Origin: Leucothrix pacifica | Lineage (GTDB): Bacteria; Pseudomonadota; Gammaproteobacteria; Thiotrichales; Thiotrichaceae | DNA: 64,000 nt | Reading direction: 5' to 3' | NCBI RefSeq assembly: GCF_003172875.1 | Contig: NZ_QGKM01000023.1 | Coordinates: 1-64,000, forward strand | Shown here: positions 26,666-43,348 of the stretch, in pieces | How positions within the stretch are numbered: position 1 is the stretch's first letter | Layout of the letters: each line of letters starts with the position of its first letter | The notes under the pieces: generated by a model | What the model was told of the DNA's origin: nothing | Database searches by the model: none | What the model saw: the letters and a program-made list of their open reading frames with translations, nothing else | Translations under genes and position numbers: made by a program

Positions 26666-26734
26666 GAAAAATCTCGCTTGTTGAATGATTCGATATTGGG
26701 AGCGTAACGATATCACCTTACGTTGTCACGGTTC

Positions 26735-26743
26735 ACAAGCTTG
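26735..26743. promoter_or_regulatory. Half-conserved ACAAGCTTG operator-like site upstream of csx16
   Basis: ACAAGCTTG matches the centre of the TTACAAGCTTGTAA palindromes upstream of cas10 and cas2. It is 69 bp before the csx16 start, compared with 71 bp for cas10, and it abuts the distal end of array 1. Confidence 0.4.
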
Positions 26744-27702: not shown

Positions 27703-28125
27703 TCATTTCACCTCCTGATTCAACACGCAAACTTGCGCTAAACGTGTTTGGTTAAATTGTTGCAAATCTTCTGGTTCACAGTCTATCACAACTTCATGAA
27801 TATCCCGATCCACCTGCGCCAGCATCAAGCCATCAAAAAACGCCGGATCATTCAATGCCGGGATTTGGTAACGCTTACCAGCCTCCTGCATGGGCAACAT
27901 CCCCAGCAAGCCCTGAAGCTCCGCGCGGGTAAGGTTTTTACGGCGGATTTTGCCCGGTAGTGTGGCACTAAAATTGTTCTCTGGTACATGCAGGGTAATC
28001 GCAATCAGATCGTTGTCGCGCTTTTCATTGCGTAGCAGGTATACCCAGATCATCAGAGAAATTAATCCGGTAAAAATACCGACGACAATGCCGATTTTGT
28101 CGAGCGTGTCCCAAGTGCTTGCCAT
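27703..28125 (-). CDS. Small membrane protein, candidate type III CRISPR effector (Csx23-like?)
   Basis: A 140-residue protein with one N-terminal membrane helix (residues about 11-31, IGIVVGIFTGLISLMIWVYLL) followed by a positively charged RNEKR stop and a ~105-residue cytoplasmic domain. That domain contains ATLPGKIRRKNLTRAELQG and has no recognised catalytic motif. It is the last gene of the cas10-csm operon, 28 bp after the CARF-HEPN gene, and abuts the array 1 leader. The organisation (short helix-plus-soluble domain, type III context) resembles membrane effectors such as Csx23 or Cam1 that respond to cyclic tetra-adenylate. That parallel is architectural; I cannot show homology by eye. 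Confidence 0.7.
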   Translation of the reverse strand: MASTWDTLDKIGIVVGIFTGLISLMIWVYLLRNEKRDNDLIAITLHVPENNFSATLPGKIRRKNLTRAELQGLLGMLPMQEAGKRYQIPALNDPAFFDGLMLAQVDRDIHEVVIDCEPEDLQQFNQTRLAQVCVLNQEVK

Positions 28126-28153: not shown

Positions 28154-29350
28154 CTAGTTTGGAATCAGAACTTTAAATGCACGTCGAAGTGCCAAACTTA
28201 GTGACGTACGGTTAGCTAAAGCTTTTTTGACAGACTCATGTGACTGAGAACTACTATGAGCAAGGTTATTCCGAATACCTCGTAACATTAAATACTCATT
28301 CCAGCTGTCACTGGGCTGCTCTTTTTCATAATCACCTTTCGCTTGGCTACGAACATTGTAACTCTCCAAACCATTTGGATATTCTTCAGCGAGCTTGGTA
28401 ATAAATGCTTCAAATCCATACAGCGTAGCTCGAAGCAAATTATCGTTTTCCAAAGCTTGCCACGCCACCGCTGACTGGCGCTGATGCGGTTGGTTCTTTT
28501 CTACCCATGAAAAACGTTGCTTTAATGCAGGTAGAAACAAAGCGGCATGGGGAGAACAAACCTCCTCTTCCTTTTTCAACAACGTGAGAAAATTTTTCAA
28601 TTTGACCTGTGCTTTTTGGACGCTGTTTGTCTGTTCGTAAAAGGATGCATCTCGCAAACTATCCAGTGCATTTTTACTAAAACCTGACTGCTCCAGAAGT
28701 GGAACAAAGCTACCGTAGTCTCCACTCTCATCGTAAATAGCCAATGCCTGGTTCCAGCGATCTAACTCTAATAAACCACCGAGCTGCATAACTGGCGTAA
28801 TATTGTCTGAAGTTAACTCCAATGCACCGTAATGAATCCCTGAAATAGTCACCTCTTTCAGGCTTTGTAACACCAAAGCACTTTGTTGAACCAACATTGG
28901 AAGGTGGCGCAATCCATGGGTAACATCCAGTATTGCTGTGTCTTTGTGATTAAAGCAGTTAACCAATATCTCCAGTGTTTTTGTTTGTTCTTCGTAATTT
29001 CGTCCATACGGAATCAATTTCAATACGCAGGGAATTCCGAGCACACCCTGTAGGTGAGCGGCCAGTTGATTCAAAGTTTCCTGTGTGACCTGGTCGTTTT
29101 GTGCTGCCTCACCCAGCTTTAGTAATTCCTCCTCCAAATCAGCATGTTCAGATAACTCTGTCTCTAGTAATAAGTTATCCCACATGCTGCCGGTCGTTCC
29201 GAGAATCACTAACTCATCTGGCGATACCTGTTTACAGAGTTCCAACCCAAAAAAGCGAGATGTTCTACGGCTTTTATCTTCAAACTCGTAGGTTGCTTGA
29301 CGGTAGTTGCTACTGGCCTTTCCCAGCATTGTGACAAGTTTATGTGGCAA
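28154..29350 (-). CDS. CARF-HEPN ribonuclease, TM1812/Csx2 (Csx1-like) family
   Basis: A 398-residue protein. The N-terminal CARF-type domain has the TM1812 features LGTTGSMWDNL (50-60) and the DxTHG motif DVTHG (142-146). The C-terminal helical domain ends with a HEPN RNase motif RNNLAH, R360 to H365. Members bind cyclic oligoadenylate made by Cas10 and then cleave RNA. It lies between csm5 and the small membrane protein on the operon strand, with 34- and 28-bp gaps. Both conserved motifs are intact, so activity is expected; the preferred ring size cannot be read. Confidence 0.88.
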   Translation of the reverse strand: MPHKLVTMLGKASSNYRQATYEFEDKSRRTSRFFGLELCKQVSPDELVILGTTGSMWDNLLLETELSEHADLEEELLKLGEAAQNDQVTQETLNQLAAHLQGVLGIPCVLKLIPYGRNYEEQTKTLEILVNCFNHKDTAILDVTHGLRHLPMLVQQSALVLQSLKEVTISGIHYGALELTSDNITPVMQLGGLLELDRWNQALAIYDESGDYGSFVPLLEQSGFSKNALDSLRDASFYEQTNSVQKAQVKLKNFLTLLKKEEEVCSPHAALFLPALKQRFSWVEKNQPHQRQSAVAWQALENDNLLRATLYGFEAFITKLAEEYPNGLESYNVRSQAKGDYEKEQPSDSWNEYLMLRGIRNNLAHSSSQSHESVKKALANRTSLSLALRRAFKVLIPN

Positions 29351-29384: not shown

Positions 29385-31058
29385 TTATTTCAAAAAACCA
29401 AGAACAATTTGAGTTCTGGCAAAGGGTTTGTCTTTTGCCGGATTTTTCTTGCTGGACTTCTCCCGCCAGATTTTCTCAGCTTTCATTCTGTCCCGGATGA
29501 ACTCGGCAGCCTCTTTTTGAGAATCACCTTCCCAGTTACCCGAGGTTAACGCAGTAATTGCATCCCAGTACGTTTCAAACTCAGCAATTTCGCGCTCAAT
29601 CGGGCTTAATTTGGAAAGCTCTAACTCACGCTGCGCATCTTCTGCCGCTGATCGCTCCATTTCGAGCCGCTCTTGCTCAGCCTCTTCAGCCCGTTTCTTA
29701 TCGAGAAGCATCTGGCGCTCCTGTTCTTCTTGTTGCTTTTTATCGAGCGCATCTTTCAATGAATTTTTATAATCTTGATTCTGCCGTAACCAATCCGCCT
29801 TGCCTTCATTAAAGCGGTGCATCTCATCAACACCACTAAATAACTCAGCAGGATCGGTATCAATTTCTACTAATATCCAACCGAATGGCATCATCCCAAG
29901 TGCATTGTTTTTGTCAGTACTTGCCAACCACCACGTTTGAGGCGCATCTTTATACTTTGGCGCATTACCCTTTCCCGTCATAATCTTTATGTTACGAACA
30001 CCTTCCAGAGTTAGCGCTTCTGCCCCACTATGGCGACCGACACGCAATAAAAATGCTTCATTGTTATCCAGTTTTCTCTGCATATTTTCAGAAAGAACCA
30101 TTGAAACAAGCCGCACCCAATTAGCATCCAGATAGCCCAACTTCTGCATTGCCGATGACTCTTCTCTGAAGAGCTTCGTATAAAAACGATTACACAAAGC
30201 AGCAATATCCCTAACAGACCATTGCAGCTCTGACTTAGGCACTTTCCCATGTGTCTGCCGAATCTCGCTAACATCCTGAATATTTAGAGAGCCAGTAATA
30301 CAGCGTGGCTGCATCGCACTAACACATTCAAGTGTTTGCGACAGGCCTTTCTCCTCAGCCATAGACTGTTGTAGGCGCTCTCCCTCTTGCAAACGACGCT
30401 TTCGATTAACCGCAAAACGGATTTCATTTCCCGGTATATCACCATCTGTTACCCAATGAGCATCACCAACAGAGATTAACCTCATTGGGTCTGTATGAAA
30501 CTTTCCTTCAAATAAGCTTTCCTGAAAGCCTCTATTCTGGGCAGCACCGCGTTTTTGTTTCAAGTTATGAGATAAGGGCTGTCCTTTGTTTAGGCTATCT
30601 AATAATGCGGTTCGAATTGCACCTTTAATACTGCTACCAGGAAACATTGGTTTACGGTTTGCTTGGTTGTAACTGGTTCGCTCAATCTCCAGATTATTAA
30701 TGACTTGTCTGCCACGCCCCTCATATTGAGCCGCTTTACCGACTCGCTTTTTATACTGCTCTGCAACGCCATCACCCACCGGAAAAAAGTGTTCAGCACC
30801 GCCAATCAGAGACTCACGATTCTGGTAGAACAGTGCCTGCACCTGTTTAAGCATTTCTTTAGTTGGCTTTCCCGTTACGATCTTGAGCAGTTCTTTGCGA
30901 GCAATATCCGGCAAGTTCCGAATGGCCGTATCAGGATTAAATTCATAGAGTGCCGTGCCTTCAATGACATAATTCGTTGGCTCATAAGTTTCGTTACAAC
31001 CAATATGCACAGGTGTTAATGGTGTGAAGTGAAGAGTGTGACTCGATAAAAAACTCAT
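29385..31058 (-). CDS. csm5: Type III-A RAMP protein Csm5 with C-terminal charged extension
   Basis: A 557-residue Csm5, longer than the usual 350-400. The RAMP core begins HTLHFTPLTPVHIGC and contains MFPGSSIKGAIRTALLDSL, the glycine-rich loop seen in Csm3 and Csm5. Residues about 435-485 form a highly charged, probably coiled-coil segment (DKKQQEEQERQ, KKRAEEAEQERLEMER), followed by ~70 residues rich in lysine. Csm5 caps the crRNA 3' side of the complex. The 5' end overlaps csm4 by 4 bp (ATGA). The extension could recruit a 3'-trimming nuclease or another partner. Confidence 0.9.
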   Translation of the reverse strand: MSFLSSHTLHFTPLTPVHIGCNETYEPTNYVIEGTALYEFNPDTAIRNLPDIARKELLKIVTGKPTKEMLKQVQALFYQNRESLIGGAEHFFPVGDGVAEQYKKRVGKAAQYEGRGRQVINNLEIERTSYNQANRKPMFPGSSIKGAIRTALLDSLNKGQPLSHNLKQKRGAAQNRGFQESLFEGKFHTDPMRLISVGDAHWVTDGDIPGNEIRFAVNRKRRLQEGERLQQSMAEEKGLSQTLECVSAMQPRCITGSLNIQDVSEIRQTHGKVPKSELQWSVRDIAALCNRFYTKLFREESSAMQKLGYLDANWVRLVSMVLSENMQRKLDNNEAFLLRVGRHSGAEALTLEGVRNIKIMTGKGNAPKYKDAPQTWWLASTDKNNALGMMPFGWILVEIDTDPAELFSGVDEMHRFNEGKADWLRQNQDYKNSLKDALDKKQQEEQERQMLLDKKRAEEAEQERLEMERSAAEDAQRELELSKLSPIEREIAEFETYWDAITALTSGNWEGDSQKEAAEFIRDRMKAEKIWREKSSKKNPAKDKPFARTQIVLGFLK

Positions 31059-32044
31059 AAATCAGCCTCCAACGACTTAATCTTATTGACCAGATCATCA
31101 GGAATTCTCAAAGGAACAACCGGACTGTAGCCCTGTTGAACGGTCTCCGGAATGGCACTGGACAACTTTTGCTTCGCCGCTCCTAGCCCTTGTCCAATAA
31201 AGCCTGCCTCAGTGTTAACGCCAAAAATTGAACCTGTTTTTGCCATCAATACGGGGCTTTTAAAGGGCTTTCCCGACTGATGAACCGCAATATCCCCATG
31301 CCGTCCGAAACGAGTAAATGGCTGATAAAAGCTAAGTGCTGAATCGTAGCCAAGCCCTTGAGGTGCGCAAGGAGCCAGTGTTAGTGATGCATTCGCGCCA
31401 TCGACGTTTGGAACATCGAATGCACGTTGCTCACCGACGACTTCAAACTTTCCCGCACCTATCGTTGCATCTTTACCAAACCCAAAATGCCCAATGTTCT
31501 GTAATGTCTCACGCAAGTCAGTGATATCGAAACGCGTTTCATCCAGCACAATATGGCAGTCAAAATGTGCTTGCCCGGAATAATGGGTCAGCTCAACACT
31601 GTAAGGCGCAAACTCACCCGTACCGGTCGTACCACTCAGGCGGTTAATAGTATTATGTGGTTGCGCATCTTCTTTTGACCAAGCGGCACCCTCTGCACCT
31701 AGCAACTCTGAGGGAGACTTGCATTGGCCCTGCCACTTGCTTAAGTCCATATCTATCTTATCAAGCGGCATCCAGACCTTCTTTTTTAGTAGCTTCCTTA
31801 ATTCAGGGTTAGCGTCCTCAAAAAACCAAGCCGGGACACTTGGCTTAGGAATATGTCCAGATGGAAAAGCATCAGAGACCACCATAAAGGGGCGTCCGTC
31901 TGTATAGCCATCCAATAACTCTGTTAAACGCCCCTCACCAAGATGATTCCTGATTGCCCAACAAAGCTGACCAAACAAAGTATCACCCAATATTTCCGTC
32001 GAGAATGCGGATAACGGTTTTAATGTAAAAGTATAGGTCTGCAT
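31055..32044 (-). CDS. csm4: Type III-A RAMP protein Csm4
   Basis: A 329-residue Csm4, the subunit that binds the crRNA 5' handle next to Cas10. The start TFTLKPLSAFSTEILGDTLFGQLCWAI and the following VSDAFPSGHIPKP are strong family signatures. HFGFGKDATIGAGKFEV is the glycine-rich RAMP loop near residue 190, and PLRIP lies at the C-terminus. The stop overlaps the csm5 start by 4 bp and there are 9 bp to csm3, consistent with one transcript. Confidence 0.93.
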   Translation of the reverse strand: MQTYTFTLKPLSAFSTEILGDTLFGQLCWAIRNHLGEGRLTELLDGYTDGRPFMVVSDAFPSGHIPKPSVPAWFFEDANPELRKLLKKKVWMPLDKIDMDLSKWQGQCKSPSELLGAEGAAWSKEDAQPHNTINRLSGTTGTGEFAPYSVELTHYSGQAHFDCHIVLDETRFDITDLRETLQNIGHFGFGKDATIGAGKFEVVGEQRAFDVPNVDGANASLTLAPCAPQGLGYDSALSFYQPFTRFGRHGDIAVHQSGKPFKSPVLMAKTGSIFGVNTEAGFIGQGLGAAKQKLSSAIPETVQQGYSPVVPLRIPDDLVNKIKSLEADL

Positions 32045-32053
32045 CTCAACGCC

Positions 32054-32767
32054 TTATGCTGCCTGAAGGTCAAAGTCTGCCAATCTTTGCTGCAACTCAG
32101 GGTCATCTAATGAAATACTAACTTTTCCGTACCCACGCGAACCCGAGCCTCCAAGCCCTGTCAGTTCGAGGAGCTTTAATCCTCTGAGCAGAGTATGCTC
32201 CAGCGCTTCATCATCATGCACCCGCATGGACACATTAAATTCAAAGATGGCACCTGCAGGGACCCGCTCAGTGTTGCGCAAACTACCATTCGCTGCCGTT
32301 CCAGAAATTCTATCGATAGACGTTTCCATTTTTACTTCGGTCATCAAAAGATTCCTTTTCCCCATCTCAGATACCCACTCACGATCTAAGCCGCAGTCCC
32401 AGAATGCAAGGCGGGTTGGCCCAATCTCTTTTAGAACGTCGTCCGACAAATTCGGCTGTGGTGCACCACCGAACAATTTAAGAATATTTTTAGCGCCTTC
32501 TAACTGGGCATTGTGGACTTTTTCTAAATGCTCAAATGTCAGAGGTTTACCATCGGTGGTACCAACAACACCTAGCTCCCACTCAAGTAAGCTGCGCATT
32601 TTGCCTTTAATACTTGATCCGGGAATGTACGGCTCTTGAGTAAACGGATTCTTGATCACCGGGCTATCAGTTCCACCAATGTGCATTTCAGCATCACCAC
32701 TACCAATGTGAAGCCCGGTTAATAGCTTAATTTTTCCAGAGATTTTGTTGACTGCATTCAGTTTCAT
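32054..32767 (-). CDS. csm3: Type III-A backbone RNase Csm3
   Basis: A 237-residue Csm3, the repeated backbone subunit that cuts target RNA every six nucleotides. LLTGLHIGSGDAEMHIGGTD leads to the predicted catalytic aspartate Asp34 in GGTDSPV, followed by PYIPGSSIKGKMRSLLE, a near-perfect family motif. A glycine loop GLGGSGSRGYGKV occurs near the C-terminus. Because Asp34 is present, target-RNA cleavage is expected, which would time-limit Cas10 signalling. Gaps are 21 bp from csm2 and 9 bp to csm4. Confidence 0.95.
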   Translation of the reverse strand: MKLNAVNKISGKIKLLTGLHIGSGDAEMHIGGTDSPVIKNPFTQEPYIPGSSIKGKMRSLLEWELGVVGTTDGKPLTFEHLEKVHNAQLEGAKNILKLFGGAPQPNLSDDVLKEIGPTRLAFWDCGLDREWVSEMGKRNLLMTEVKMETSIDRISGTAANGSLRNTERVPAGAIFEFNVSMRVHDDEALEHTLLRGLKLLELTGLGGSGSRGYGKVSISLDDPELQQRLADFDLQAA

Positions 32768-32788: not shown

Positions 32789-33214
32789 TTAACCTGATGG
32801 ACGTTCGACTTTGTAAAAACCCATAAACGCTTCAATGAATAGTTTGAAGACCCTCATATCTTGCGCAGTATTCACTTGCGATAAACAATGGCTGAGCAAA
32901 GTTACGTAGTTATCGTCAACAAGGTCACGGCCTTTCGCATAGGCCACTTTTGCGTTCAGCATACGAATAAAAGGTAGGTACTCGGAAAATTTATCCGGAT
33001 AAGTATTCACCTTGTTTTCCCACATCACCACTTCATCGTAGAAACGTCGCAGCTGAGTTGGCTTATTGTGTTTGCTTTTAGCAGCAGCAACAGACTTCGC
33101 ACAACGCTCTGCAATTGAGTCAAAGAGTTCCTTAGTAATTTCTGAAAAATTGATCCCACTGGTATCAATTCTAGGCGTGTCATTTTGACGCCTACCTTTG
33201 TGTTGGTAACTCAT
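32789..33214 (-). CDS. csm2: Type III-A small subunit Csm2
   Basis: A 141-residue helical small subunit. The C-terminal two thirds carry the Csm2 pattern TQLRRFYDEVVMWENKV, LPFIRMLNAKVAYAKGR and FIEAFMGFYK. The N-terminal ~25 residues are polar and probably disordered. Csm2 lines the target RNA opposite Csm3. It starts 5 bp after cas10 in the same operon. Presence of Csm2 together with Csm3-4-5 supports subtype III-A rather than III-B. Confidence 0.92.
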   Translation of the reverse strand: MSYQHKGRRQNDTPRIDTSGINFSEITKELFDSIAERCAKSVAAAKSKHNKPTQLRRFYDEVVMWENKVNTYPDKFSEYLPFIRMLNAKVAYAKGRDLVDDNYVTLLSHCLSQVNTAQDMRVFKLFIEAFMGFYKVERPSG

Positions 33215-33219
33215 AATGG

Positions 33220-35946
33220 TTAATCCCGCTGCTGATATAAATGTGAAAATAAAGCGACTTTGTAGTCACCCTTGTGTAGCTCAATGCCATTAGCGGCAAT
33301 GTCTTGTGCTAATTGCGCATGTCTTTCTTTTCTTTCATCCCCACTCAAGTTGCGTTGCCTCTCAAGCAACCGATAGGTGCGGTATGAAAAATATGAACGC
33401 CAAATTGCATTTTCTGGTTTTCCTTGATCCATTGCTTCGCGCATATCAACCAAGTTCAACAAACCATAAACGTAGCCTGTACTCAGTGACTGACTACTTT
33501 TGTGATGTTCCAAGCTTTCCCCGAGCTGCATTAATTCTTTGTAGCTTTTCCATGGGACAACTCTGGAAAAACAACTCACTGCATTCTTAGTGGGATCGCC
33601 ACCCGTTGACGAATAAGCTTTCGCGTTATCTAGCGCTTCTTCGCCCCTCTCTGCAAGATATCGAATCGGTAGTCCTGGTTTTGTCATACTCAGCCCAGAT
33701 GAAAAATGCACTTCATTGTTCATTGCGGCATACCGCTCAAAGTCTTGCTGCATTTCAAGTGACAACTTCATCATGGAATGCCAAGGACCAATGAGGAAGA
33801 AATCATCACCACCCGCAAAAACCGTGTAAGCACTTGGATACTTTGCATGACAAAGTTGAGGTAGGTGAATTGCAAAAAATGCATTCATCTGTCGTGACAG
33901 TGCGGCCATTTTCGCAAACGTTGGAGCACCTAACCCTTTCTGAAATATTGAACCCAAATCATCAACATCTCCTTTTAGGGTCATCAACGCAGTTTGCCCT
34001 TTCCACTTCCCTGACGTGTCAACCTTCCGATCATCACAGGCAATATGATTGAGTGTTTTCAAATCGCCAAATGAGAGGTCATCCGAGACTTTTTGGTATT
34101 TGTGGTGATCACGCTCTGTAAGGTCTCGCTCGGATACAATCGGCACATACGCGTTAATATAACGTCGTGCATAGCCGTTCCATAACACCTCGGATTCAGA
34201 ATTTGGAATAGAAAAATCAATCGCTCTAAGTAGGCTGCGCTTGTCAACTAGTGGTTTGAATTTCCCGGTGGATTGCTCAGGCTTTGTAAACGCTAACCTG
34301 AACCCGAAAATGTCCAAGCCCAACGGCCTCAACTCCTGAGTTGACAACAGCTGTGCGTCCTTTCGACAAATTAGAAATCGATTGAACTTTGTGAGATACC
34401 CACCCACATCAATCTGATCTTTAGCCAGTTGGCAAATATACCGTTCAGTGTCTTTAAGCTTCACAACACCAGCGGAGTGGCCATCGATAGCACACACGCC
34501 CTGCTCATTGTTAAAGCTATCCAAAAATTCCTCAAAAACCGGAGCAGGAGCGGCCTGATCAACCATCTGCATACGCTTATGCTTTTTTAGCTCAAGCGCT
34601 TCAAATAAACGCTTTACCAGCTTCTGAAATGGTGGTTCTTGCGTTTGACCATCTGATTTTCTAAAGTCATTTGAGCTTGCGGGTAACCATGCAAGTCCAA
34701 CGCCTGATTGGCCGTAACTATGCTTTAAAAACCAATCATCCAAGACGCCCTGGACTGTCTTAAGCTTTTCAGTGACCTCCGGGGTATTCGGGGCCACTAT
34801 CAAAAACTTCCCTGCCGCATTGATTACCTGACTCGTTGAAGGCAAATCCAAAGCATCTAGTACTTTAAGTGCCGCACATTCTGTGAGTAATGAGATGTAA
34901 AATGAGCGCCCTCTCAGTAACTTTGCTGCTCGTTTTTGAGTTTCGCTACCTGCTGAAAAAATGAAGTTTTGGATTCCAAAGAAGTCGCCTTGTATCAGAA
35001 GAAATTTCTTATCTGACCAGGCAGTTTGGCTTAGTGGAACATCTTGTCTCTTAACATCCCATTGCGCCGTTAATTCTTCTCGGGCAGCCTCAGTATCATC
35101 ATGTTGATGGTATCGCCACAGCGCTACCGCAAGCGCAGCTGTCGTTCTGGAGTGGTCATACAGTGAAACATCGGGCAGCGTTTTTCCGACGGTTGCCGAA
35201 GGTATCGCATAAGTATACGTTCCCCATAACGTCTCAAAGTGATCCAACCATAGGGACAGGTCACGGCGGTGACTCTCCGGAATCAGTGCCAGTCCAGAAA
35301 CAAAGCCATTCCAAAGCTCACGATATTCAGCTTGTGAGTTGGTATTGCTATTCGCTTCATAGCCTTTTCTCTCAACCGGGAACAACGCAGAAGAGCTCAA
35401 TGGTTTTAGCTTGTAACACCACTCAAGATCTTCCGCTGATGGCTCAGGCCTAGGCTCTTCCAAAGTAATTTGCTCAACCAATGTTAGCTGGCGGGTGTTG
35501 TAGTGATTCCGCTTTTCTTCGGACTCGTTATATTCTGCGAACTCCTGACGTTCAAAACCAGAAGCGACACGATCCGCAGTTGCAATGACCCATTGTAAGA
35601 ATGTTTCAGGCTTATGGTGCATTGCGGCAGCATTGATTAAAGAATCATCTGCATCCCGATCTTTCCAAGGTTTAAACGGATACATATCACTACCAATAAT
35701 TTCTGGTAGGTGCTTTTCGATCACGTCAAAACCAATGGCTGTGTAAGCTGCATGCACATGGGTGTAATGATCCTTAAACTTTGGGCAATACAATTGTTTA
35801 TTCAGATCAGACCGTCTATTACCTTCCAAATCCATTGAGTCAGCTTCTTCAATTCGTGCGCGCTCTGCAAACTTTCCCAAGTCATGGAGAAAAGCGGCTA
35901 AAGCAACACGGCTGGAGGCATCAAGTAGTGATTTCGGATCAGACAT
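33220..35946 (-). CDS. cas10: Cas10/Csm1, HD nuclease and cyclic oligoadenylate synthase
   Basis: A 908-residue Cas10. The N-terminal HD domain is intact (AAFLHDLGKFAERA, His21-Asp22). The second Palm domain has the GGDD cyclase motif at residues 712-715 (FAGGDDFFLIG). Both single-stranded DNase and cyclic oligoadenylate synthesis are therefore expected on target RNA binding. A GDFFGIQNFIFS segment marks the first Palm region. It is first of the csm operon; the 187-bp upstream gap holds the palindrome at 36018-36031 and an ATTATCAA/TTGATAAT dyad. The signalling arm is matched by one CARF-HEPN effector and two ring-nuclease-type proteins. Confidence 0.95.
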   Translation of the reverse strand: MSDPKSLLDASSRVALAAFLHDLGKFAERARIEEADSMDLEGNRRSDLNKQLYCPKFKDHYTHVHAAYTAIGFDVIEKHLPEIIGSDMYPFKPWKDRDADDSLINAAAMHHKPETFLQWVIATADRVASGFERQEFAEYNESEEKRNHYNTRQLTLVEQITLEEPRPEPSAEDLEWCYKLKPLSSSALFPVERKGYEANSNTNSQAEYRELWNGFVSGLALIPESHRRDLSLWLDHFETLWGTYTYAIPSATVGKTLPDVSLYDHSRTTAALAVALWRYHQHDDTEAAREELTAQWDVKRQDVPLSQTAWSDKKFLLIQGDFFGIQNFIFSAGSETQKRAAKLLRGRSFYISLLTECAALKVLDALDLPSTSQVINAAGKFLIVAPNTPEVTEKLKTVQGVLDDWFLKHSYGQSGVGLAWLPASSNDFRKSDGQTQEPPFQKLVKRLFEALELKKHKRMQMVDQAAPAPVFEEFLDSFNNEQGVCAIDGHSAGVVKLKDTERYICQLAKDQIDVGGYLTKFNRFLICRKDAQLLSTQELRPLGLDIFGFRLAFTKPEQSTGKFKPLVDKRSLLRAIDFSIPNSESEVLWNGYARRYINAYVPIVSERDLTERDHHKYQKVSDDLSFGDLKTLNHIACDDRKVDTSGKWKGQTALMTLKGDVDDLGSIFQKGLGAPTFAKMAALSRQMNAFFAIHLPQLCHAKYPSAYTVFAGGDDFFLIGPWHSMMKLSLEMQQDFERYAAMNNEVHFSSGLSMTKPGLPIRYLAERGEEALDNAKAYSSTGGDPTKNAVSCFSRVVPWKSYKELMQLGESLEHHKSSQSLSTGYVYGLLNLVDMREAMDQGKPENAIWRSYFSYRTYRLLERQRNLSGDERKERHAQLAQDIAANGIELHKGDYKVALFSHLYQQRD

Positions 35947-36133: not shown

Positions 36134-37255
36134 TCAGGTCAATGAAATCGCCGCATCAGGTAAAGTAAGGCCAAACCGCGTATTCGGTCTTTTACCATGA
36201 GAATCAATCAGATAGCTTTGTGCAACACGCTTGCCCAGTGCCTTTCTTAACTGACTGTTCACGCGGGATTTTCGCTGTTCGAAGTATTCTTTGGTCATAC
36301 CGTTGGTCAGTGTTTTTCTGGCACGTTCATAGGCGCCGCTTTCACCATGTAAGTCCCGATATACCGCTAAAAACTCATCCGCAAGCTTAGCGTCCGTCCA
36401 ACGTATCGGTGGGGCTGACCGGGCAGCACGCTGTAACAACATCACATAAAAGCTAAGTTCCACCGCATTCATTTTTACCGATTTTCCGCTGCAGCTCAGT
36501 TGCAGGCTTGTCACATCAAACCCCACTTGCACAGGGGCAAATTCTGCTTGTGCCGCGTCTACCGTATCGCTAAAGCTGGTCTGTCCGCTGAGCAAACGGG
36601 ATGGCAAGCCCTCGCGCAGGCGCACAAATGGAATATCAGCCAGCGTTACTTCTACTTTGCTGGCGTCAAAGCCAGTATTGTCTGGCCGTACAACCCAGGT
36701 TTCTTTGGGCGGTGGGTAGAAAAACTCTTCATTAAAAAAGTACTCATCCTCGACTAATACGTGACTCAATCGATCCTGCGGACGACCAAATAATGACAGC
36801 GCATAGCCGATGTAAAATGTCATGGTGCGTCGCCCGCCAGATAAGGACACATACAAGCTACTATCAGCGTCTGCGGTTAGCTCCTGCACGACTCGCGTAA
36901 TGAAGTCAGCGGCATGTGTATTATCATCGCGGGTGCGTACATCTTCTAAGGCTACGCCGTTGGCATCGGCGATGAGGTGGATATGCGTTGACTCGCAGCT
37001 TGGTACAGGCAGCTGGTAGTCCTTGCACAAAGCCCCGATCCACCCCGGACTTGAGTCACTGGGCAACAGCTTCTCTACAAATGGCTGCCCTTTTTTAGTC
37101 GTGATGATATGCACCTCAGTCGGCATGCAGGCGTCATCGTCTAACTGAGTCAGTGCATAAATAGTCTCGGTCACAATCTGGGGTGACCGGGCGGCGACTG
37201 CCAGCAAAATGCGGCGGGGGTATTGATTTGGCTTCGACAATTTTAGTGGATTCAT
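36134..37255 (-). CDS. NE0113-family CRISPR ring nuclease with C-terminal extension
   Basis: A 373-residue protein of the NE0113 family, named 'CRISPR-associated ring nuclease Csm6' in current nomenclature although it lacks a HEPN RNase domain. RRILLAVAARSPQIVTETIYAL at the N-terminus and YVSLSGGRRTMTFYIGYALSLFGRPQDRLSHVLV are diagnostic. The C-terminal ~130 residues (KSVKMNAVELSFYVMLLQRAA, then a basic SQLRKALGKRV) look like a helical or winged-helix module. The CARF-like core probably binds or degrades cyclic oligoadenylate. It precedes cas10 on the same strand by 187 bp and is divergent from the NYN gene. Confidence 0.88.
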   Translation of the reverse strand: MNPLKLSKPNQYPRRILLAVAARSPQIVTETIYALTQLDDDACMPTEVHIITTKKGQPFVEKLLPSDSSPGWIGALCKDYQLPVPSCESTHIHLIADANGVALEDVRTRDDNTHAADFITRVVQELTADADSSLYVSLSGGRRTMTFYIGYALSLFGRPQDRLSHVLVEDEYFFNEEFFYPPPKETWVVRPDNTGFDASKVEVTLADIPFVRLREGLPSRLLSGQTSFSDTVDAAQAEFAPVQVGFDVTSLQLSCSGKSVKMNAVELSFYVMLLQRAARSAPPIRWTDAKLADEFLAVYRDLHGESGAYERARKTLTNGMTKEYFEQRKSRVNSQLRKALGKRVAQSYLIDSHGKRPNTRFGLTLPDAAISLT

Positions 37256-37398: not shown

Positions 37399-38766
37399 AT
37401 GCAGTTTGATACAGCGATTTTCTATGACATAGAAAACCTGATTGGCGGATACTCAAAAGCAGAGATGCTACCCTCACTCTCATTAGTCAATGTTCACCGC
37501 TTGGTAAATGAGCTGGATATTGGCAATATCGCCATACAACGGGCCTACGCTAACTGGAATACTCCCCGCCTGAATGTACTCAGAGATGATATTGTTACCT
37601 TAGGCATTAACCCGGTGCAGATGTTTGGATTTGGTCGTGGTGCTGATAAAAACGCCAGCGACATTCAAATGGTGATTGATGCAATCGACATCGCCTGCCA
37701 CCGGCAAAATATTACCAACTTTGTGATTGTATCCGGCGACGGTGGTTTCTCCCCGTTGGCCATTAAACTGCATGAATACGGAAGGCGTGTAATTGGTGTC
37801 GCCTACCAGCGCATTACCAACCGCGTGTTAGAAAGCGTCTGCGATGACTTTATTTGGCTGCCCGACCCAATCGCAGAAAAGTCTGTCACGATTACGCCCC
37901 AACCTATCAAGCCCGTTCCCGCAACAGCACCACAGCAGTACACCGACCCGATTCTGATTAGCTACACCAGCCAGTTTCAGCCGCTGCATGAGCCGACTAA
38001 GGATCAGATTATGTCGGAGGGTGTGGCGATTGTTGAGTATCTGGCTACACATAAACCCATAGCCCGCAAACTTAGAAAGACCGGGCTGAATATCTCCGTG
38101 CTCGCACAGTTGATAAAGTACCGTTTGGGTGAGCTGAAGTACCCGCCGCTTGGCTTTGTTAAACAAATCGAGTTTATCAATTACATCGTCAACGCATCAC
38201 CTTGCAAACTGGTGCTTAAAGCGCCTAGTGAATATCGCCTCGCCTTAGAGGGCTTCAGTATTTCCGGGTATTCTGATGTTGCCCCGGTTGAACAGCGGCA
38301 CAATATGCACACGCCAGCGTGTTATGCCGATTTTCTGCGCAAAGGCCCAAAGCCACACATACGCTTGCCAGAGAAAATTGTTGTGCATGATATCGCCCGA
38401 TATATGCTGAGCCATCCGACTTTTTTTCGGAATATCTGCTTTGCGGAGATTTGCCATCACTTACAAGAAAACCTGACCTATCAACTCTCCGATCTGGAAC
38501 GTGGTGCAAGCGCGCTAATGCTTACCCCAGCTTTTACTGATGACGGCACTCGTCCTGATTTTGATGGTTGTCGGTTTACTTTGGCGGCTACTGAGTACGC
38601 TGAGATGTTGCAGCACTTGGAAGACACGATGTATGAAAAGCTGTTTCAAATACTCGGTGAAGTCAACGAGGATGCATTTACCGCGCTGTTGTCGTTAGAC
38701 GCAGAATACGTCAGCCATGAAGCGCCAGACATCTCCCCGCAAGCGCCCGCTACTGATCACGAGTGA
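37399..38766 (+). CDS. NYN-domain (PIN-like) RNase with OST-HTH/LOTUS domain
   Basis: A 455-residue protein. Residues 1-155 form a NYN/LabA-type domain with acidic active-site positions Asp10 (AIFYDIEN), Asp88, Asp94 and Asp114 in VSGDGGFSPLA. Residues about 205-283 resemble an OST-HTH/LOTUS RNA-binding domain (IVEYLATHKPIARK, then LGFVKQIEFINYIV). A further ~150-residue helical region follows. NYN-LOTUS proteins are putative RNases. It is inside the CRISPR island, divergent from the ring nuclease, and its stop is only 22 bp from array 2, towards which it is transcribed. A CRISPR role is inferred from position. Confidence 0.85.
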   Translation: MQFDTAIFYDIENLIGGYSKAEMLPSLSLVNVHRLVNELDIGNIAIQRAYANWNTPRLNVLRDDIVTLGINPVQMFGFGRGADKNASDIQMVIDAIDIACHRQNITNFVIVSGDGGFSPLAIKLHEYGRRVIGVAYQRITNRVLESVCDDFIWLPDPIAEKSVTITPQPIKPVPATAPQQYTDPILISYTSQFQPLHEPTKDQIMSEGVAIVEYLATHKPIARKLRKTGLNISVLAQLIKYRLGELKYPPLGFVKQIEFINYIVNASPCKLVLKAPSEYRLALEGFSISGYSDVAPVEQRHNMHTPACYADFLRKGPKPHIRLPEKIVVHDIARYMLSHPTFFRNICFAEICHHLQENLTYQLSDLERGASALMLTPAFTDDGTRPDFDGCRFTLAATEYAEMLQHLEDTMYEKLFQILGEVNEDAFTALLSLDAEYVSHEAPDISPQAPATDHE

Positions 38767-38788: not shown

Positions 38789-40601
38789 GTCTTAATCCCT
38801 TCTTCATCAGGGTATCGTTTTCACGTATATACCTGAAGATATTGAAAACATCCTAAGGTCTTAATCCCTTCTTCATCAGGGCATCGTTTTCACTGTAGTT
38901 GGCAATAAGTCTGTAAGCGCATAACGTCTTAATCCCTTCTTCATCAGGGCATCGTTTTCACGGTAGAGAAGTGGGAAAGCCTAATGGCTGGCAAGTCTTA
39001 ATCCCTTCTTCATCAGGGCATCGTTTTCACCTTATGTAAAGAAAGGTTTGATTACCGCAGTGTCTTAATCCCTTCTTCATCAGGGCATCGTTTTCACGAA
39101 TGGTTAGAAGAAACAGGTAAGCTTGACGTCTTAATCCCTTCTTCATCAGGGCATCGTTTTCACAAGGTAGTACACAGAACGATAATGCGTTCAACATGTC
39201 TTAATCCCTTCTTCATCAGGGCATCGTTTTCACTGCTGCCTTTACATTCTAAACACTTTCCAACTTGTCTTAATCCCTTCTTCATCAGGGCATCGTTTTC
39301 ACCCTAACCCATGCGGTATCTACACCGTCGAGCCAGTCTTAATCCCTTCTTCATCAGGGCATCGTTTTCACACTCGCGCACGCGGAAGTGCTGGGGGCTA
39401 AACTGTCTTAATCCCTTCTTCATCAGGGCATCGTTTTCACCCCTTCGGTAGGCGATGTGATTATGAAGTCAGGTCTTAATCCCTTCTTCATCAGGGCATC
39501 GTTTTCACTTATGATCCTGACGTAGAGGTATGGCAGCTAAGTCTTAATCCCTTCTTCATCAGGGCATCGTTTTCACCCGTGTTTTACCTGAAAAGTGTTT
39601 AAACTTCTGGGTCTTAATCCCTTCTTCATCAGGGCATCGTTTTCACCCAGAGCAAAGGCTGAAGCTGCTGCAGAGGAAAAGTCTTAATCCCTTCTTCATC
39701 AGGGCATCGTTTTCACAAAATAGGAGAAAGTTATGAGTTTTGTAATATAGTCTTAATCCCTTCTTCATCAGGGCATCGTTTTCACAATACTCTGTCAGAA
39801 AAGAATAATTTGACAGTGGTCTTAATCCCTTCTTCATCAGGGCATCGTTTTCACCCTAATGCAGGCAGCATTGGTTTCTGACAATGTCTTAATCCCTTCT
39901 TCATCAGGGCATCGTTTTCACCTGTCACTTGGATGGATAACGATCATGTAGTTTGGTCTTAATCCCTTCTTCATCAGGGCATCGTTTTCACTTTAACAAA
40001 TGCACGAAGATGGTGGTACCACGTCTTAATCCCTTCTTCATCAGGGCATCGTTTTCACGCTCCAGCGACGGCTCCGGCGACGGCTCCGGGTCTTAATCCC
40101 TTCTTCATCAGGGCATCGTTTTCACCTGAGCTTCTTAAGTATTGGTTACACGTAGCGTCTTAATCCCTTCTTCATCAGGGCATCGTTTTCACCCAACCGT
40201 CAAGACTACGCTGCAAATGTTCAGGTCTTAATCCCTTCTTCATCAGGGCATCGTTTTCACCTTAAGTATTGGTTACACGTAGCGGAATAAGTAGTCTTAA
40301 TCCCTTCTTCATCAGGGCATCGTTTTCACAAGCAATATAGTGACATACTGCAAGCTAAGGGTCTTAATCCCTTCTTCATCAGGGCATCGTTTTCACAATC
40401 GGCAATGGCGGCTTTTGGTCTTAGTAGCGTCTTAATCCCTTCTTCATCAGGGCATCGTTTTCACGCAAAGCGACCGAGAATATTTATGATCTTAGTCGTC
40501 TTAATCCCTTCTTCATCAGGGCATCGTTTTCACCAGCACCGCGCGGATGGATTAAAGAACAAATGGTCTTAATCCCTTCTTCATCAGGGCATCGTTTTCA
40601 C
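38789..40601 (-). CRISPR. CRISPR array 2: 27 repeats, 26 spacers
   Basis: Same 36-nt repeat as array 1, almost invariant (CATCGTT form throughout). Only the distal repeat 38789-38824 differs, by one base (GTATCG). Spacers are 30-34 nt. The leader lies on the right at 40602 and the array is read on the minus strand. Spacers at 40126-40156 and 40261-40293 share 23 identical bases, offset by 8. The spacer at 40059-40089 is built of a repeated CGACGGCTCCGG unit. The conserved repeats and intact leader suggest this is the more active array. Confidence 0.98.
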
Positions 40602-40690
40602 TGCAAGCATCAATTCCAGCCTTTGCAATCAAGCACTTACAAAGGGGCTTAGCGGGATTTCTCACTTTCAAAAAGCTAGGTTTCACCAAA
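40602..40690 (-). promoter_or_regulatory. Leader of CRISPR array 2
   Basis: Begins with the same TGCAAGCATCAATTCCAGCC as array 1's leader. It is identical over about 60 bp except one base, then diverges through a few bases and converges again at AAAAAGCTAGGTTTCAC. It is followed by ~200 bp without a gene that holds the palindromes and repeat element before cas2. Confidence 0.85.
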
Positions 40691-40782
40691 TACTCACCAA
40701 AACGTTGTATCTGCAGACCACAAATACCAAGCCCTCATTATCACCAACAAACCACCGTTTGTCACTCCCCACAAGCTTGTCA

Positions 40783-40835
40783 GTGAATCATTTCAAGCGA
40801 AGCTTGTGTGAGCACATAAACACCACGGCTGAACG
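40783..40835. repeat. Structured repeat element, copy 1 (left of cas2)
   Basis: Contains the core TTTCAAGCGAAGCTTGTGTG, whose CAAGC-GAA-GCTTG makes a triloop hairpin, followed by GAGCACATAAACACCACGG. The same core occurs at 43208-43263 and 43279-43348, on the other side of the four-gene adaptation module. Here the outer stem is not evident. Confidence 0.7.
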
Positions 40836-40841
40836 CCCCAC

Positions 40842-40855
40842 TTACAAGCTTGTAA
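40842..40855. promoter_or_regulatory. Perfect 14-bp palindrome upstream of cas2
   Basis: TTACAAGCTTGTAA, 40 bp before the cas2 ATG and identical to the site upstream of cas10. A shorter ACAAGCTTGT copy is at 40771-40780. Confidence 0.65.
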
Positions 40856-40895
40856 ACCTCCCCTTATCCCGTCGTTCGTGCCTACACTAACGCAC

Positions 40896-41180
40896 ATGAA
40901 AAATCGCAACCTCTACCTCATTGCCTATGATATCCGCCAACCAAAGCGCCTGAGGGCAGCGCTTAAAGCGACCCGAAGCTTTGCCACCGGCGGACAAAAA
41001 TCCGTACACGAGTGCTGGATGACCGACGCCGAACGCGGCGACTTACTGGCAACATTATCCATGATCATTAATGAATCAGAGGACAGCCTCATCTGCATTC
41101 ACCTCGACCCGCGACAATCCGTCATTCCATTAGGCAAAGCGCTATCACCTGCCGATAGCGACTGGTTTTACATAGGCTAA
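40896..41180 (+). CDS. cas2: CRISPR adaptation protein Cas2 (copy A)
   Basis: A 94-residue Cas2. LYLIAYDIRQPKRLRAAL carries the conserved aspartate after the first strand, and FATGGQKSVHECWMT is the dimer-interface strand region. I use ATG 40896 rather than the upstream GTG because the conserved part begins at once. It is first in the operon cas2-cas1-cas1'-cas2', 5 bp before cas1. The sequence differs markedly from the second Cas2 at 42866, so the two are not a recent duplication. Expected role: central dimer of the spacer integrase. Confidence 0.92.
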   Translation: MKNRNLYLIAYDIRQPKRLRAALKATRSFATGGQKSVHECWMTDAERGDLLATLSMIINESEDSLICIHLDPRQSVIPLGKALSPADSDWFYIG

Positions 41181-41185
41181 GTATT

Positions 41186-42118
41186 ATGACAACCCTTTAT
41201 ATTGACCGCCGCAACACCCGACTAACCATCGAATCCAACACACTCGTGTGCTTCATAGAAGACAAGCGCCAACGCCCTGTGCCACTGCTGCTGCTTGATC
41301 AACTCATCATCAGCAGTATGATTGAGTTAAGCAGCACCGTATTGCTCAAACTGGCAGAGGCTCAGGTCATGGTGGTGTTTTTAAACCCCAGAAACAGCAA
41401 GCAACGCGCCAGCGTACATGGCCGTTTGGGCAAGAACCCACACATTCGACTGGCACAGTATCAGGCACAACAAGATACACTGCTAAGCTGCGAAATCGCA
41501 CAGCAATGGGTGGTGGCTAAAGTAAAAAATCAGCGTCGCCTACTATTTCGCTACCAAGACAGCCGCAAAGATCTACGCTACCCACTGAGTAAGTCCATCG
41601 AACAGCTGACGCAAGCCCTTCAGACACTGGATACCCCCGTCGCAAATCTTGATAGCTTGCGGGGAGTCGAAGGCAGTGCTGCACGAGCAAGCTTTGCAGC
41701 CTACAAGGAGATTTTACCCAATTCACTCGGCTTTACCGGTCGTAAGCGCCGCCCTCCGCCCGATCCGGTCAATGCCTGTTTGTCACTTGCTTATACTTTG
41801 TTGCATGCGCGCGCAGTACAAGCCGCCGTCGCACAAGGCTTTGATCCAATGATTGGCTTCTTGCACGAACCAAAATACAGCAGGGACTCTCTGGCCGCTG
41901 ACATCATCGAGCCATGGCGACCGCATGTGGACGCGTGGGTACTGGAACAATTTACCACTCAGGCGTTGCGTAAAGACGATTTCACTAACGATCAGGATTC
42001 CTGCTTATTGGGTAAAGCCGGTCGATACAAGTTTTACGCCGCCTACGAACCAGTACTCAAAACCCTGACGCGTGGCATGCGGCTGCAACTGTTTCAACTA
42101 CGCAAAAAACTGTTATGA
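41186..42118 (+). CDS. cas1: CRISPR integrase Cas1 (catalytic copy)
   Basis: A 310-residue Cas1 with a complete active site. The metal-binding glutamate is in LRGVEGSAARASF, the histidine in GFLHEPKYSRDSLA and the downstream acidic residue in ADIIEPWRPHVD. The RKRRPPPDPVNACLS loop typical of active Cas1 is present. It cuts and joins prespacers at the leader-repeat junction. Its TGA overlaps the next ATG (ATGA), coupling it to the degenerate Cas1 paralogue. No reverse transcriptase domain is fused. Confidence 0.95.
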   Translation: MTTLYIDRRNTRLTIESNTLVCFIEDKRQRPVPLLLLDQLIISSMIELSSTVLLKLAEAQVMVVFLNPRNSKQRASVHGRLGKNPHIRLAQYQAQQDTLLSCEIAQQWVVAKVKNQRRLLFRYQDSRKDLRYPLSKSIEQLTQALQTLDTPVANLDSLRGVEGSAARASFAAYKEILPNSLGFTGRKRRPPPDPVNACLSLAYTLLHARAVQAAVAQGFDPMIGFLHEPKYSRDSLAADIIEPWRPHVDAWVLEQFTTQALRKDDFTNDQDSCLLGKAGRYKFYAAYEPVLKTLTRGMRLQLFQLRKKLL

Positions 42119-42879
42119 AGCCACTTTACTTACACGGCGCAGCAGTCAGTGGCATTCGTTTAGAGCACGATGCACTGCGGGTTGTGACCGAGCACCGGGC
42201 CGATACTTGGTTTCCACTCAAGCGTATTTCACGGATTATTCTTAGTGGCGATATACAACTCTCTTCCAAAGTACTTGCCGCGTGTTTAAGTGAGAATATC
42301 CCGGTTGTGGTCGCTGGTCAGCAAGGTGAGTTTGTCGGTGTCTGCTTTGGCACTAACTTTAAGCAACAGTCCTTACAGTCACACATTCTCGAACTGTACG
42401 AATCCCGTGCACAACTTTACATCCTCGACAACTGGTTTTTGGGGCAACAGCGCCAGCAGATTCTGCATTTACAAAAGCGCTTTCGACTGCCGCAAGACGT
42501 GTTTGAAGCTAATGAAATCAAAGCCAGACTGGATGAACTGATTTGTCTTGAGCATCGCTTTTACGACTGGCAAAGCTGCCTGCAAAAAATGATCCCCATG
42601 TTAGCCGCTCAGCTCACGGTATTACTGAGGCATTTTGGCTTTGATAGCGAAGTGCTAAGACCTGCCCCTGCCAGTATTGGCTTATTGCAACACTTTATTG
42701 ATTTGCTGGAATGGAAACTCTGGGCACTGGCAGCCAACGGTCACTTACCCAGCGGCACACTGCGCAATCAGCTGATTCATTATTACCAATCACATAGTCA
42801 CGACATCGAGCAATTTACCCGCTTACAAATAGACAAACTCTGGCACCGCTTTTACGAGGCACAACATGAGCAAGCGTAA
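42115..42879 (+). CDS. Degenerate Cas1 paralogue (Cas1')
   Basis: A 254-residue protein with a Cas1-like N-terminal beta domain (LRVVTEHRADTWFPLKRISRIILSG) and a shortened helical domain. A glutamate is retained (ICLEHRFYDW), but the RRPPPDPVN loop is missing. The GFLH...R...D site is replaced by a segment GFDSEVLRPAPASIG without the histidine. It is therefore predicted to be catalytically dead. The gene is fused into the operon by overlaps on both sides (4 bp with cas1, 14 bp with cas2'), so it is made in step with both. It is most simply a non-catalytic subunit of a mixed Cas1 complex. Confidence 0.8.
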   Translation: MKPLYLHGAAVSGIRLEHDALRVVTEHRADTWFPLKRISRIILSGDIQLSSKVLAACLSENIPVVVAGQQGEFVGVCFGTNFKQQSLQSHILELYESRAQLYILDNWFLGQQRQQILHLQKRFRLPQDVFEANEIKARLDELICLEHRFYDWQSCLQKMIPMLAAQLTVLLRHFGFDSEVLRPAPASIGLLQHFIDLLEWKLWALAANGHLPSGTLRNQLIHYYQSHSHDIEQFTRLQIDKLWHRFYEAQHEQA

Positions 42880-43174
42880 ATCTAAACCGTATTTAATCAC
42901 CTATGACATCAGCGATAAGCGCCGCTTGCAGCGCGTACACCGCCAGCTAAAAAGCTGCGCCATCGCCATGCAATACTCGGTGTTTATCGCGGTAATGAAT
43001 GAAAGTGATCGTGATGAGTTAATCGAAAAACTCAAGCAGCTGATTGATGAAAAGCAGGATGATATCCGGCTTTATCCACTGCCGCAGCAACCAAAATGGT
43101 ATGCCTGGGGCGAGGCGCTCTGGCCTGATGGCTTAACGCTGACCGGAGATACACCGCTGCCGAAAGTGGAGTGA
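42866..43174 (+). CDS. cas2: CRISPR adaptation protein Cas2 (copy B, Cas2')
   Basis: A 102-residue Cas2 with KPYLITYDISDKRRLQRVHR at the start (conserved aspartate in TYDI) and AMQYSVFIAVMNESDRDEL as the second strand. It is closer to the ordinary type I/III Cas2 pattern (QYSVF) than copy A (QKSVH). A C-terminal tail LTGDTPLPKVE extends the fold. The start lies 14 bp inside cas1'. Two dissimilar Cas2 proteins in one operon suggest a heterodimeric or two-state bridge between the two Cas1 types. Confidence 0.9.
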   Translation: MSKRKSKPYLITYDISDKRRLQRVHRQLKSCAIAMQYSVFIAVMNESDRDELIEKLKQLIDEKQDDIRLYPLPQQPKWYAWGEALWPDGLTLTGDTPLPKVE

Positions 43175-43207: not shown

Positions 43208-43263
43208 GTGTTATTTCATTCAGCGAATCGTTTCAAGCGAAGCTTGTGTGAGCACATGAACAC
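43208..43263. repeat. Structured repeat element, copy 2
   Basis: Core TTTCAAGCGAAGCTTGTGTG with inner CAAGC-GAA-GCTTG hairpin. The flanks GTGTT...TCAT and ATGAACAC can pair as an outer stem. It lies 34 bp after the cas2' stop. Confidence 0.7.
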
Positions 43264-43278: not shown

Positions 43279-43348
43279 GCCGTGTGGTATTCAATTCGGC
43301 GAATCGTTTCAAGCGAAGCTTGTGTGAGCGAATTGAATACCACACGGC
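43279..43348. repeat. Structured repeat element, copy 3, with perfect 19-bp outer stem
   Basis: GCCGTGTGGTATTCAATTC at 43279-43297 is the exact inverse of 43330-43348. Inside it lies the same core with CAAGC-GAA-GCTTG. Total 70 bp. It could also terminate transcription from the adaptation operon. Confidence 0.85.

Follow-up and report, generated by a model that had tools for sequence, protein, structure and literature searches.

The stretch of DNA analysed here (the window) is 64,000 nucleotides long and comes from the gammaproteobacterium Leucothrix pacifica (contig NZ_QGKM01000023.1, positions 1 to 64,000), whose genome assembly comprises 5.02 Mb in 146 contigs. At 40896-43174, in a type III-A locus of clustered regularly interspaced short palindromic repeats (CRISPR), it carries on the plus strand four adaptation genes, cas2, cas1, cas1′ and cas2′. 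The first, cas2 (40896-41180), encodes a 94-residue Cas2 with the motif GGQKSVH (PF09827, 48.1 bits); its start is taken as the ATG at 40896, the mechanically delimited open reading frame opening earlier, at a GTG at 40878. After a gap of 5 bp comes cas1 (41186-42118), for a 310-residue protein matching PF01867 over residues 4-288 (255.6 bits), followed with a 4-bp overlap by cas1′ (42115-42879), for a 254-residue Cas1-like protein lacking the active site, whose match to the same family covers residues 14-128 only (47.8 bits), and, with an overlap of 14 bp, by cas2′ (42866-43174), for a 102-residue Cas2 with the motif QYSVF (PF09827, 67.8 bits), assigned also by its place in the Cas2 tree. Both Cas1 proteins exceed the cut-off of their family (22.3 bits), as do both Cas2 proteins that of theirs (23.8 bits). 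The open reading frames confirm the gene order and the two overlaps given in the original prediction, which was made from the bare sequence. The two Cas2 proteins share 31.6% identity over 79 residues and the pair is met elsewhere without Cas1′, beside a reverse transcriptase, in keeping with the earlier judgement that this is no simple duplication.

Cas1 Glu162, His227, Asp239 and Glu242, which we take to be the catalytic residues, are intact in the window and invariant in 31/31 loci in an alignment of 31 Cas1 with 31 Cas1′ sequences. For E. coli Cas1, a passage of PMC9939771 lists E141, H208, D218 and D221. In Cas1′ the glutamate column is a gap in all 31 sequences, the whole segment around it being gapped in every copy; the histidine is kept in 1/31 in this single alignment, the aspartate position is retained in 23/31 and the RRPPPDPVN stretch of Cas1 is not conserved. 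The expectation of a Cas1 with its active-site signatures kept and a partner without the loop and the histidine is thereby borne out, with loss of the glutamate in addition. Median pairwise identity is 23% for Cas1′ and 44% for Cas1, and the halves of the two proteins show reverse trends, Cas1′ having 28% in its N-terminal half and 18% in its second half while Cas1 has 37% and 49%. Judged by these alignments, Cas1′ is a relative of Cas1 that, with its active site gone, would not be a Cas1 integrase on its own.

A structure model of Cas1′ was built from five sequences and reached a predicted local distance difference test score (pLDDT) of 60 and a predicted template modelling score (pTM) of 0.44. 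The top 50 Foldseek rows listed for it are all Cas1-family chains, a casposase included, with the row 2yzs assigned to the family by profile search and the others by title. VIA-align likewise found only Cas1-family members among the 50 entries listed. It superposed for the most part a portion of the model from about residue 85 to 251 on the helical domain of Cas1, with Z values of 7.7-9.8 that are to be read with caution, helical proteins with Z below about 13 being able to match by chance; the uniform Cas1 identity of the matches is a stronger argument than the Z value. In addition the A2 profile retrieves Cas1 chains from the Protein Data Bank with E 7e-7. Both domains of Cas1′ thus look Cas1-like, the first from sequence and the second from the modelled fold, and the Cas1 fold foreseen for it stands, within the limits of a modest model.

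How widespread is this arrangement? Because the genome scans score no more than a few first-look candidates in each genome, the counts are lower bounds from samples rather than a census. Among 63 genomes of the order a Cas1′ query had 13 matches, 12 of them four-gene loci; the match in G015 proved to be a reverse transcriptase-Cas1 (RT-Cas1) protein and so no Cas1′. Of 370 genomes of the class, each at least 90% complete, 30 matched a profile made from the 12 order loci, and in 20 the neighbourhood showed Cas1′; nine of the other ten are places where a Cas1 profile finds ordinary Cas1 or RT-Cas1, and the tenth, G115, lay outside the neighbourhood reading. With a wider profile 42 of 397 genomes of the phylum gave matches, at least eight with a four-gene locus among the best matches and some weaker ones whose neighbourhoods were inspected; two of the eight, the genome of the window and G180, had already been counted and six are from outside the class. 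Matches to RT-Cas1 or ordinary Cas1 (e.g. L081-L085, L159-L162 and L168-L170) were dropped from the Cas1′ set. In total Cas1′ (above 50 bits) is present in at least 37 distinct genomes, of 16 families by the scan labels. The genes stand on the same strand and in the order cas2-cas1-cas1′-cas2′ in 35/35 loci uncut by contig ends (in L070 and L158 a contig end falls inside the module), which is more than chance would give, and a cas1 adjoins all 37 of the 37 Cas1′ genes. One of these cas1 genes is decayed, that of G029 (locus L073, 8028-10550), with CRISPR repeats between it and cas1′; a partial second cas2′ is at 4472-4678.

In the reverse comparison, a Cas1 profile run on the 370 class genomes singled out 22 with at least 334 bits, the next best having 242, and 20 of these 22 carry cas1′. 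The exceptions are G195, where the 160-bp gap between cas1 and cas2′ holds a cas1′ relic consisting of the start of the frame and then a deletion (L151, 7470-7630), and G406, to be considered below. G191 (L166), where the contig ends within cas1, is in the same Cas1 clade by tree. Among PADLOC models PDLC01185 ranks third by E-value for the window Cas1′ (43.1 bits) and comes first for 6 of 7 further Cas1′ proteins tested; it had no match in 14 control genomes. Searches by tblastn, which could overlook distant copies, gave no match to P0001 in plasmids or phages, nor to the G280 Cas1′ in plasmids, and Cas1′ was confirmed in no viral contig.

Cas10 (PF22335, at least 48 bits) is on the same contig within 45 kb of the module in 21 of the 37 genomes, and in twelve of the other 16 there are Cas10 matches on other contigs. 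The nearby PF22335 matches of G029 and G052 are weaker and could belong to other palm domains; this model gives matches in E. coli too. The Cas10a model reached at least 276 bits in 12 of 43 genomes scanned, which suggests that other type III kinds also use the module. The guess that related arrangements exist in other proteobacterial type III loci was right.

As to selection, the median ratio of non-synonymous to synonymous substitution rates (dN/dS) in close pairs is 0.12 for cas2 (23 pairs), 0.10 for cas1 (21), 0.12 for cas1′ (27) and 0.17 for cas2′ (32), the pairs being mostly from Thiothrix and not independent. There are no internal stop codons in 31 translated Cas1′ sequences, and in close pairs cas1′ is under purifying selection with no sign of decay; decay or misassembly of the module is rejected on the strength of the 37 genomes and of dN/dS. 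Tree distances of the four proteins correlate with r 0.66-0.87 across 34 loci (the incomplete L070 and L158, and L073, being left out), a level reached in 0 of 500 permutations, with the highest values for cas1-cas2′ (0.87) and cas1-cas1′ (0.83) and the lowest for cas1′-cas2 (0.66). Such correlations demonstrate that the genes are inherited together and do not speak to contact between the proteins. With start codons picked by script, cas1 and cas1′ overlap in 25 of 30 loci, the overlap being 4 nt in 10 of them. Of the heteromeric integrase originally predicted, the co-inheritance of the genes is as expected; the defined stoichiometry read from the gene overlaps does not follow, since overlap alone sets none. 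Of the findings named in advance as refuting that prediction, neither a Cas1′ mostly lacking cas1 or cas2 nor a modelled structure without the Cas1 fold was encountered.

The ancestry of the unlike Cas2 proteins is pertinent. In a Cas1 tree of 69 rows, made by a quick method with three duplicate loci removed, all Cas1 proteins from loci with two unlike Cas2 genes are in one group of 46 rows, the truncated L166 included (Shimodaira-Hasegawa-like approximate likelihood ratio test, SH-aLRT, 99). This group splits into 40 rows (37 four-gene loci with L151, L152 and L166; SH-aLRT 95) and six from loci of the order cas2-cas2′-cas1; L152 is a long branch of unsure placement. The Cas2 tree (91 of 101 rows after removal of ten near copies) has few columns and weak support. 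In it a single branch separates the first Cas2 of two-Cas2 loci, that of the window among them (41 rows, SH-aLRT 88), from the rest, while the second Cas2 (38 rows) cluster together with one long-branched outsider, and therefore both Cas2 lineages, having arisen by duplication or by separate recruitment, are probably older than Cas1′. In all six cas2-cas2′-cas1 loci of the Cas1 tree a stand-alone reverse transcriptase (RT) follows cas1. One such cas2-cas2′-cas1-RT set is in the genome of the window itself, on contig C57 (L088, 5342-7881; PADLOC RT model 295.6 bits); others are in L146, L149, L163, L164 and L165, the RTs beyond C57 being found with a profile grown from the C57 RT. A seventh set (L210, 15643-18220), in G055 of the Thiothrix group, is about 8-10 kb from a four-gene module. 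With that separate set excepted, the RT profile found none in the fetched flanks, of unequal length, of the 37 four-gene modules. From this distribution, Cas1′ and RT seem to replace each other as partner of the unlike Cas2 pair. A term search of the main text of a survey of CRISPR-associated RTs (PMC5541045) for 'two cas2' found none.

New spacers need a single orientation, for which type I systems can use the protospacer adjacent motif (PAM), and the solved spacer integrases other than that of type I-F are, like it and so far as is known, two-fold symmetric. For type III systems, a passage of PMC7515739 states, no PAM is required. The I-F integrase is described in part of PMC12259127 as a C2-symmetric heterohexamer with active Cas1 at the ends and inactive Cas1 forming the walls of the repeat channel. 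The adaptation complexes of E. coli I-E and P. aeruginosa I-F (Cas1-2/3) resemble the present module in Cas1 active-site residues, Cas2 family and adjoining array, and the I-F complex also resembles what is proposed here in that only some of its Cas1 subunits are active, the others being channel walls (same passage of PMC12259127). In the canonical integrase, however, one Cas1 gene gives both active and inactive subunits around a Cas2 homodimer, whereas the module has two genes of each kind and a Cas1′ without active site. A single Cas1 gene that serves active and inactive places is a compromise.

Given a pair of Cas2 genes and a pair of Cas1 genes of which one has lost its active site, the simplest reading is of Cas1:Cas1′ pairs on either side of Cas2:Cas2′. 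On balance we favour the view that the module is a heteromeric integrase for type III-A spacer integration; the exact arrangement of its subunits is put forward with less assurance. Cas2 and Cas2′ would form a heterodimer at the centre, each side of which would hold a Cas1 paired with a Cas1′. Both strand transfers would be done by Cas1, while Cas1′ would fill the place of the non-catalytic Cas1 copy, shaping the DNA channel with no need of an active site. The unlike Cas2 subunits would break the two-fold symmetry, and therefore the enzyme could distinguish the prespacer ends, or the leader side, without a PAM. The physical complex, and the division of labour between Cas1 and Cas1′, we infer from the genes.

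Might such an enzyme have left a trace in the arrays? Array 2 (38789-40601, minus strand; 27 repeats of 36 nt, spacers of 30-34 nt) adjoins the module and array 1 (26743-27617, minus strand; 13 repeats) is of the same repeat family. From the repeat end ATTAAGAC, a type III tag, and from altered repeats at the low-coordinate ends (five differences in array 1, one in array 2) we take the minus strand to be the one that yields the CRISPR RNAs (crRNAs). Of the 21 four-gene loci with an array found by a general repeat finder, 20 have repeats that begin with GTCTTAATCCC or something close to it, L064 differing. For 639 distinct spacers, drawn from 24 loci (the four-gene loci, L152 and the RT-type L088 and L163), composition was read on the strand complementary to the inferred crRNA. 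There A is in excess at the three positions to the left of the centre (ratio 1.38, 1.26-1.52 by bootstrap over loci), and the strand is purine-rich (0.547). Tested per spacer (593 spacers), A stands out at +15 (p 8e-11) and +16 (p 1e-6), and the maximum z is 7.3, against at most 4.2 under 500 circular shifts. The pattern was first spotted by eye in the window and then tested on the remaining loci; without the window, two Thiothrix loci and both RT-type loci the ratio is still 1.38 (1.23-1.56). On whether the signal is anchored at the centre or at one end, 12 bootstrap slopes ranged from 0.1 to 0.9.

No such excess is seen in I-F arrays (304 spacers of six genomes, 122 from the window's own; A ratio 0.98, purine 0.505) or in I-E arrays of the own genome (128 spacers; 0.90 and 0.497), the latter having a mid-spacer T excess of their own (41% at +15, p 1e-3 at one of 32 positions). 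RT-Cas1 controls (124 spacers) have A at 1.21 (0.99-1.43) and I-C/other controls (104 spacers) T at 1.27 (1.01-1.45); given such weak central A/T excess in controls, a preference for A or T near the centre may be general. The strand of each control array was assigned from its repeat ends, in the case of the L167 repeat without good ground. The difference that measures the asymmetry expected of unlike subunits is 0.17 (-0.02 to 0.37, bootstrap over loci) in four-gene arrays and so includes zero, for a set holding also nine spacers of the three-gene L152 and the spacers of the RT-bearing G055. It is -0.01 (-0.16 to 0.14) in I-F, -0.04 (-0.28 to 0.19) in I-E, 0.18 (-0.11 to 0.49) in RT-Cas1 and -0.25 (-0.54 to 0.11) in I-C/other controls, and points clearly to asymmetry only in RT-type arrays, at 0.87 (0.54-1.16; 49 spacers of two loci, bootstrap over spacers only). 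Two observations speak against asymmetry in particular: T is enriched on the mirror side too (1.15), and A exceeds T in only 13 of the 17 loci with at least 15 spacers, RT-type included (p 0.049). The purine skew can be explained by selection exerted through the type III effector, the mid-spacer signal less easily so; for Thermus, a passage of PMC7515739 attributes type III strand bias to selection and reports protospacers without nucleotide preference. The mid-spacer signal is a lead, a possible trace of the integrase in the arrays. A search in phages for protospacers of array 2 gave one match, to a low-complexity spacer, and was not used.

Several facts weigh against a heteromeric integrase of this kind. 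Fold prediction covered single chains, and the complex is a proposal made from the genes; confidence in the Cas1′ model is weak and its helical matches come with the caution given above; and the tree correlations are such as linkage alone gives. G406 (L152) has an apparently whole cas2-cas1-cas2′ with no Cas1′ match, and G029 keeps cas1′ and cas2′ open beside its decayed cas1. No match to Cas10 (PF22335) at all was obtained in G059 or G285, both of which have the four-gene module, and therefore the type III link is not absolute. The Cas2 pair is without Cas1′ in seven RT loci, whose Cas2′ are nested inside the four-gene Cas2′ (SH-aLRT 83, on few columns), unlike in the Cas1 tree, as are those of L151 and L152. 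To these is to be added the four-gene spacer asymmetry whose interval includes zero.

A further account, an unlikely one, is broader in scope: an asymmetric Cas2:Cas2′ integrase of single origin, one branch of which, with RT, would capture RNA-derived prespacers in a strand-asymmetric manner, while in the other branch the pseudoenzyme Cas1′ would replace RT and set the asymmetry (of end, strand or orientation) for DNA capture in RNA-targeting type III systems. Improbable in our estimation is an accessory role for Cas1′, as a DNA-binding or regulatory factor that protects prespacers, recognizes the leader or inhibits Cas1 and is no structural subunit. The evolutionary rate of Cas1′ is roughly double that of Cas1 (median tree distance 3.89 versus 2.05), G406 and G195 do without an intact cas1′, and in G029 it has outlasted intact cas1, all of which would suit such a factor; Cas1′ nevertheless appears to retain both Cas1 domains and its gene is nearly always linked to cas1.

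We give a shade less credence to an enzyme with two unlike ends, a Cas1:Cas1 dimer on one Cas2 and a Cas1′:Cas1′ dimer on the other, in which the Cas1′ end would do no more than hold one end of the prespacer while Cas1 joins the other, and the second joining would fall to repair or to a second Cas1 dimer. The presence of two Cas2 and two Cas1 genes, in an order that pairs cas2 with cas1 and cas1′ with cas2′, is in its favour, but the highest tree-distance correlations pair the genes otherwise (weak evidence), and the arrays have regular repeats and varied spacers as expected of normal two-sided joining. That each operon encodes two separate integrases, Cas1-Cas2 and a non-canonical Cas1′-Cas2′ of other chemistry, would fit the different lineages of the Cas2 proteins and is very improbable with the glutamate absent from every aligned Cas1′, the histidine from 30/31 and a cas1 beside all 37. 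Least credible of all is Cas1′ as a decaying duplicate of Cas1, for which there are the lost active site, the relic in L151 and the partial second cas2′ in L073, and against which are the open frames, purifying selection, conserved N-terminal domain and presence in 16 families.

The arrangement is one already noticed by PADLOC curators and, going by a passage of PMC6119699, in one genome paper. The PADLOC label of PDLC01185, 'Cas1, diverged variant, second in the loci', fits the position of cas1′ in the gene order and is silent on Cas2′, active-site loss, distribution and function. The passage of PMC6119699 concerns a III-A locus of Methylobacter KS41 and Acidithiobacillus ferrivorans YL15 with csx1, csx16 and 'two copies of cas1/cas2', as in the window; by this description it is probably the same module, and the passage is silent on whether the copies differ or a Cas1 is inactive. 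Within the open-licence literature, most subscription papers being outside its scope, the search met no study of the inactive Cas1, the paired Cas2 or the function of the arrangement. Adaptation modules with stand-alone RT are akin to it, their Cas1 belonging to a neighbouring clade and their Cas2 to the two groups found here; they differ in their order, cas2-cas2′-cas1-RT, and in having no Cas1′. If the proposal of a heteromeric integrase is true, it provides a clear case of a pseudoenzyme turned dedicated integrase subunit. Since the active Cas1 place, the inactive one and each Cas2 would then have a gene of their own, every place could be mutated alone, and therefore the non-catalytic Cas1 role and the orientation question would become directly testable. 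The recurrence of the four-gene set suggests that the enzyme which records infections can consist of unlike, specialized subunits.

The locus in the window is type III-A, with Cas10/Csm1, Csm2-5, Cas6 and arrays present. All on the minus strand, array 1 has on one side csx23-like (27703-28125), a gene for a Csx1/Csm6-like CARF-HEPN effector (28154-29350), csm5 (29385-31058), csm4 (31055-32044), csm3 (32054-32767), csm2 (32789-33214) and cas10/csm1 (33220-35946; PADLOC Cas10a, 461.9 bits), and on the other csx16 (26366-26716) and cas6 (25422-26363). Beyond cas10 are a minus-strand gene for a CARF protein of the NE0113 family (36134-37255) and, between it and array 2, one on the plus strand for an NYN-domain protein (37399-38766; PF01936, 99 bits). 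The 294 nt between array 2 and cas2 (40602-40895) probably serve array 2 as leader and the cas2 operon as promoter region; the first 60 nt or so recur after array 1 with one difference.

A 23-nt direct repeat brackets the module, at 40791-40813 upstream of cas2 and at 43231-43253 and 43307-43329 downstream, as part of a longer similar stretch. It was not found in the fetched stretches of two relatives of the same genus, and elsewhere in the genome there are only two near copies, each with one mismatch. The genome has five Cas1-bearing contigs (C78, C81, C104, C57 and C63), and its arrays include those with an I-F repeat (124 pattern matches), an I-E-like repeat (130) and an I-C-like repeat (35), together with two repeat variants of the GTCTTAAT kind.

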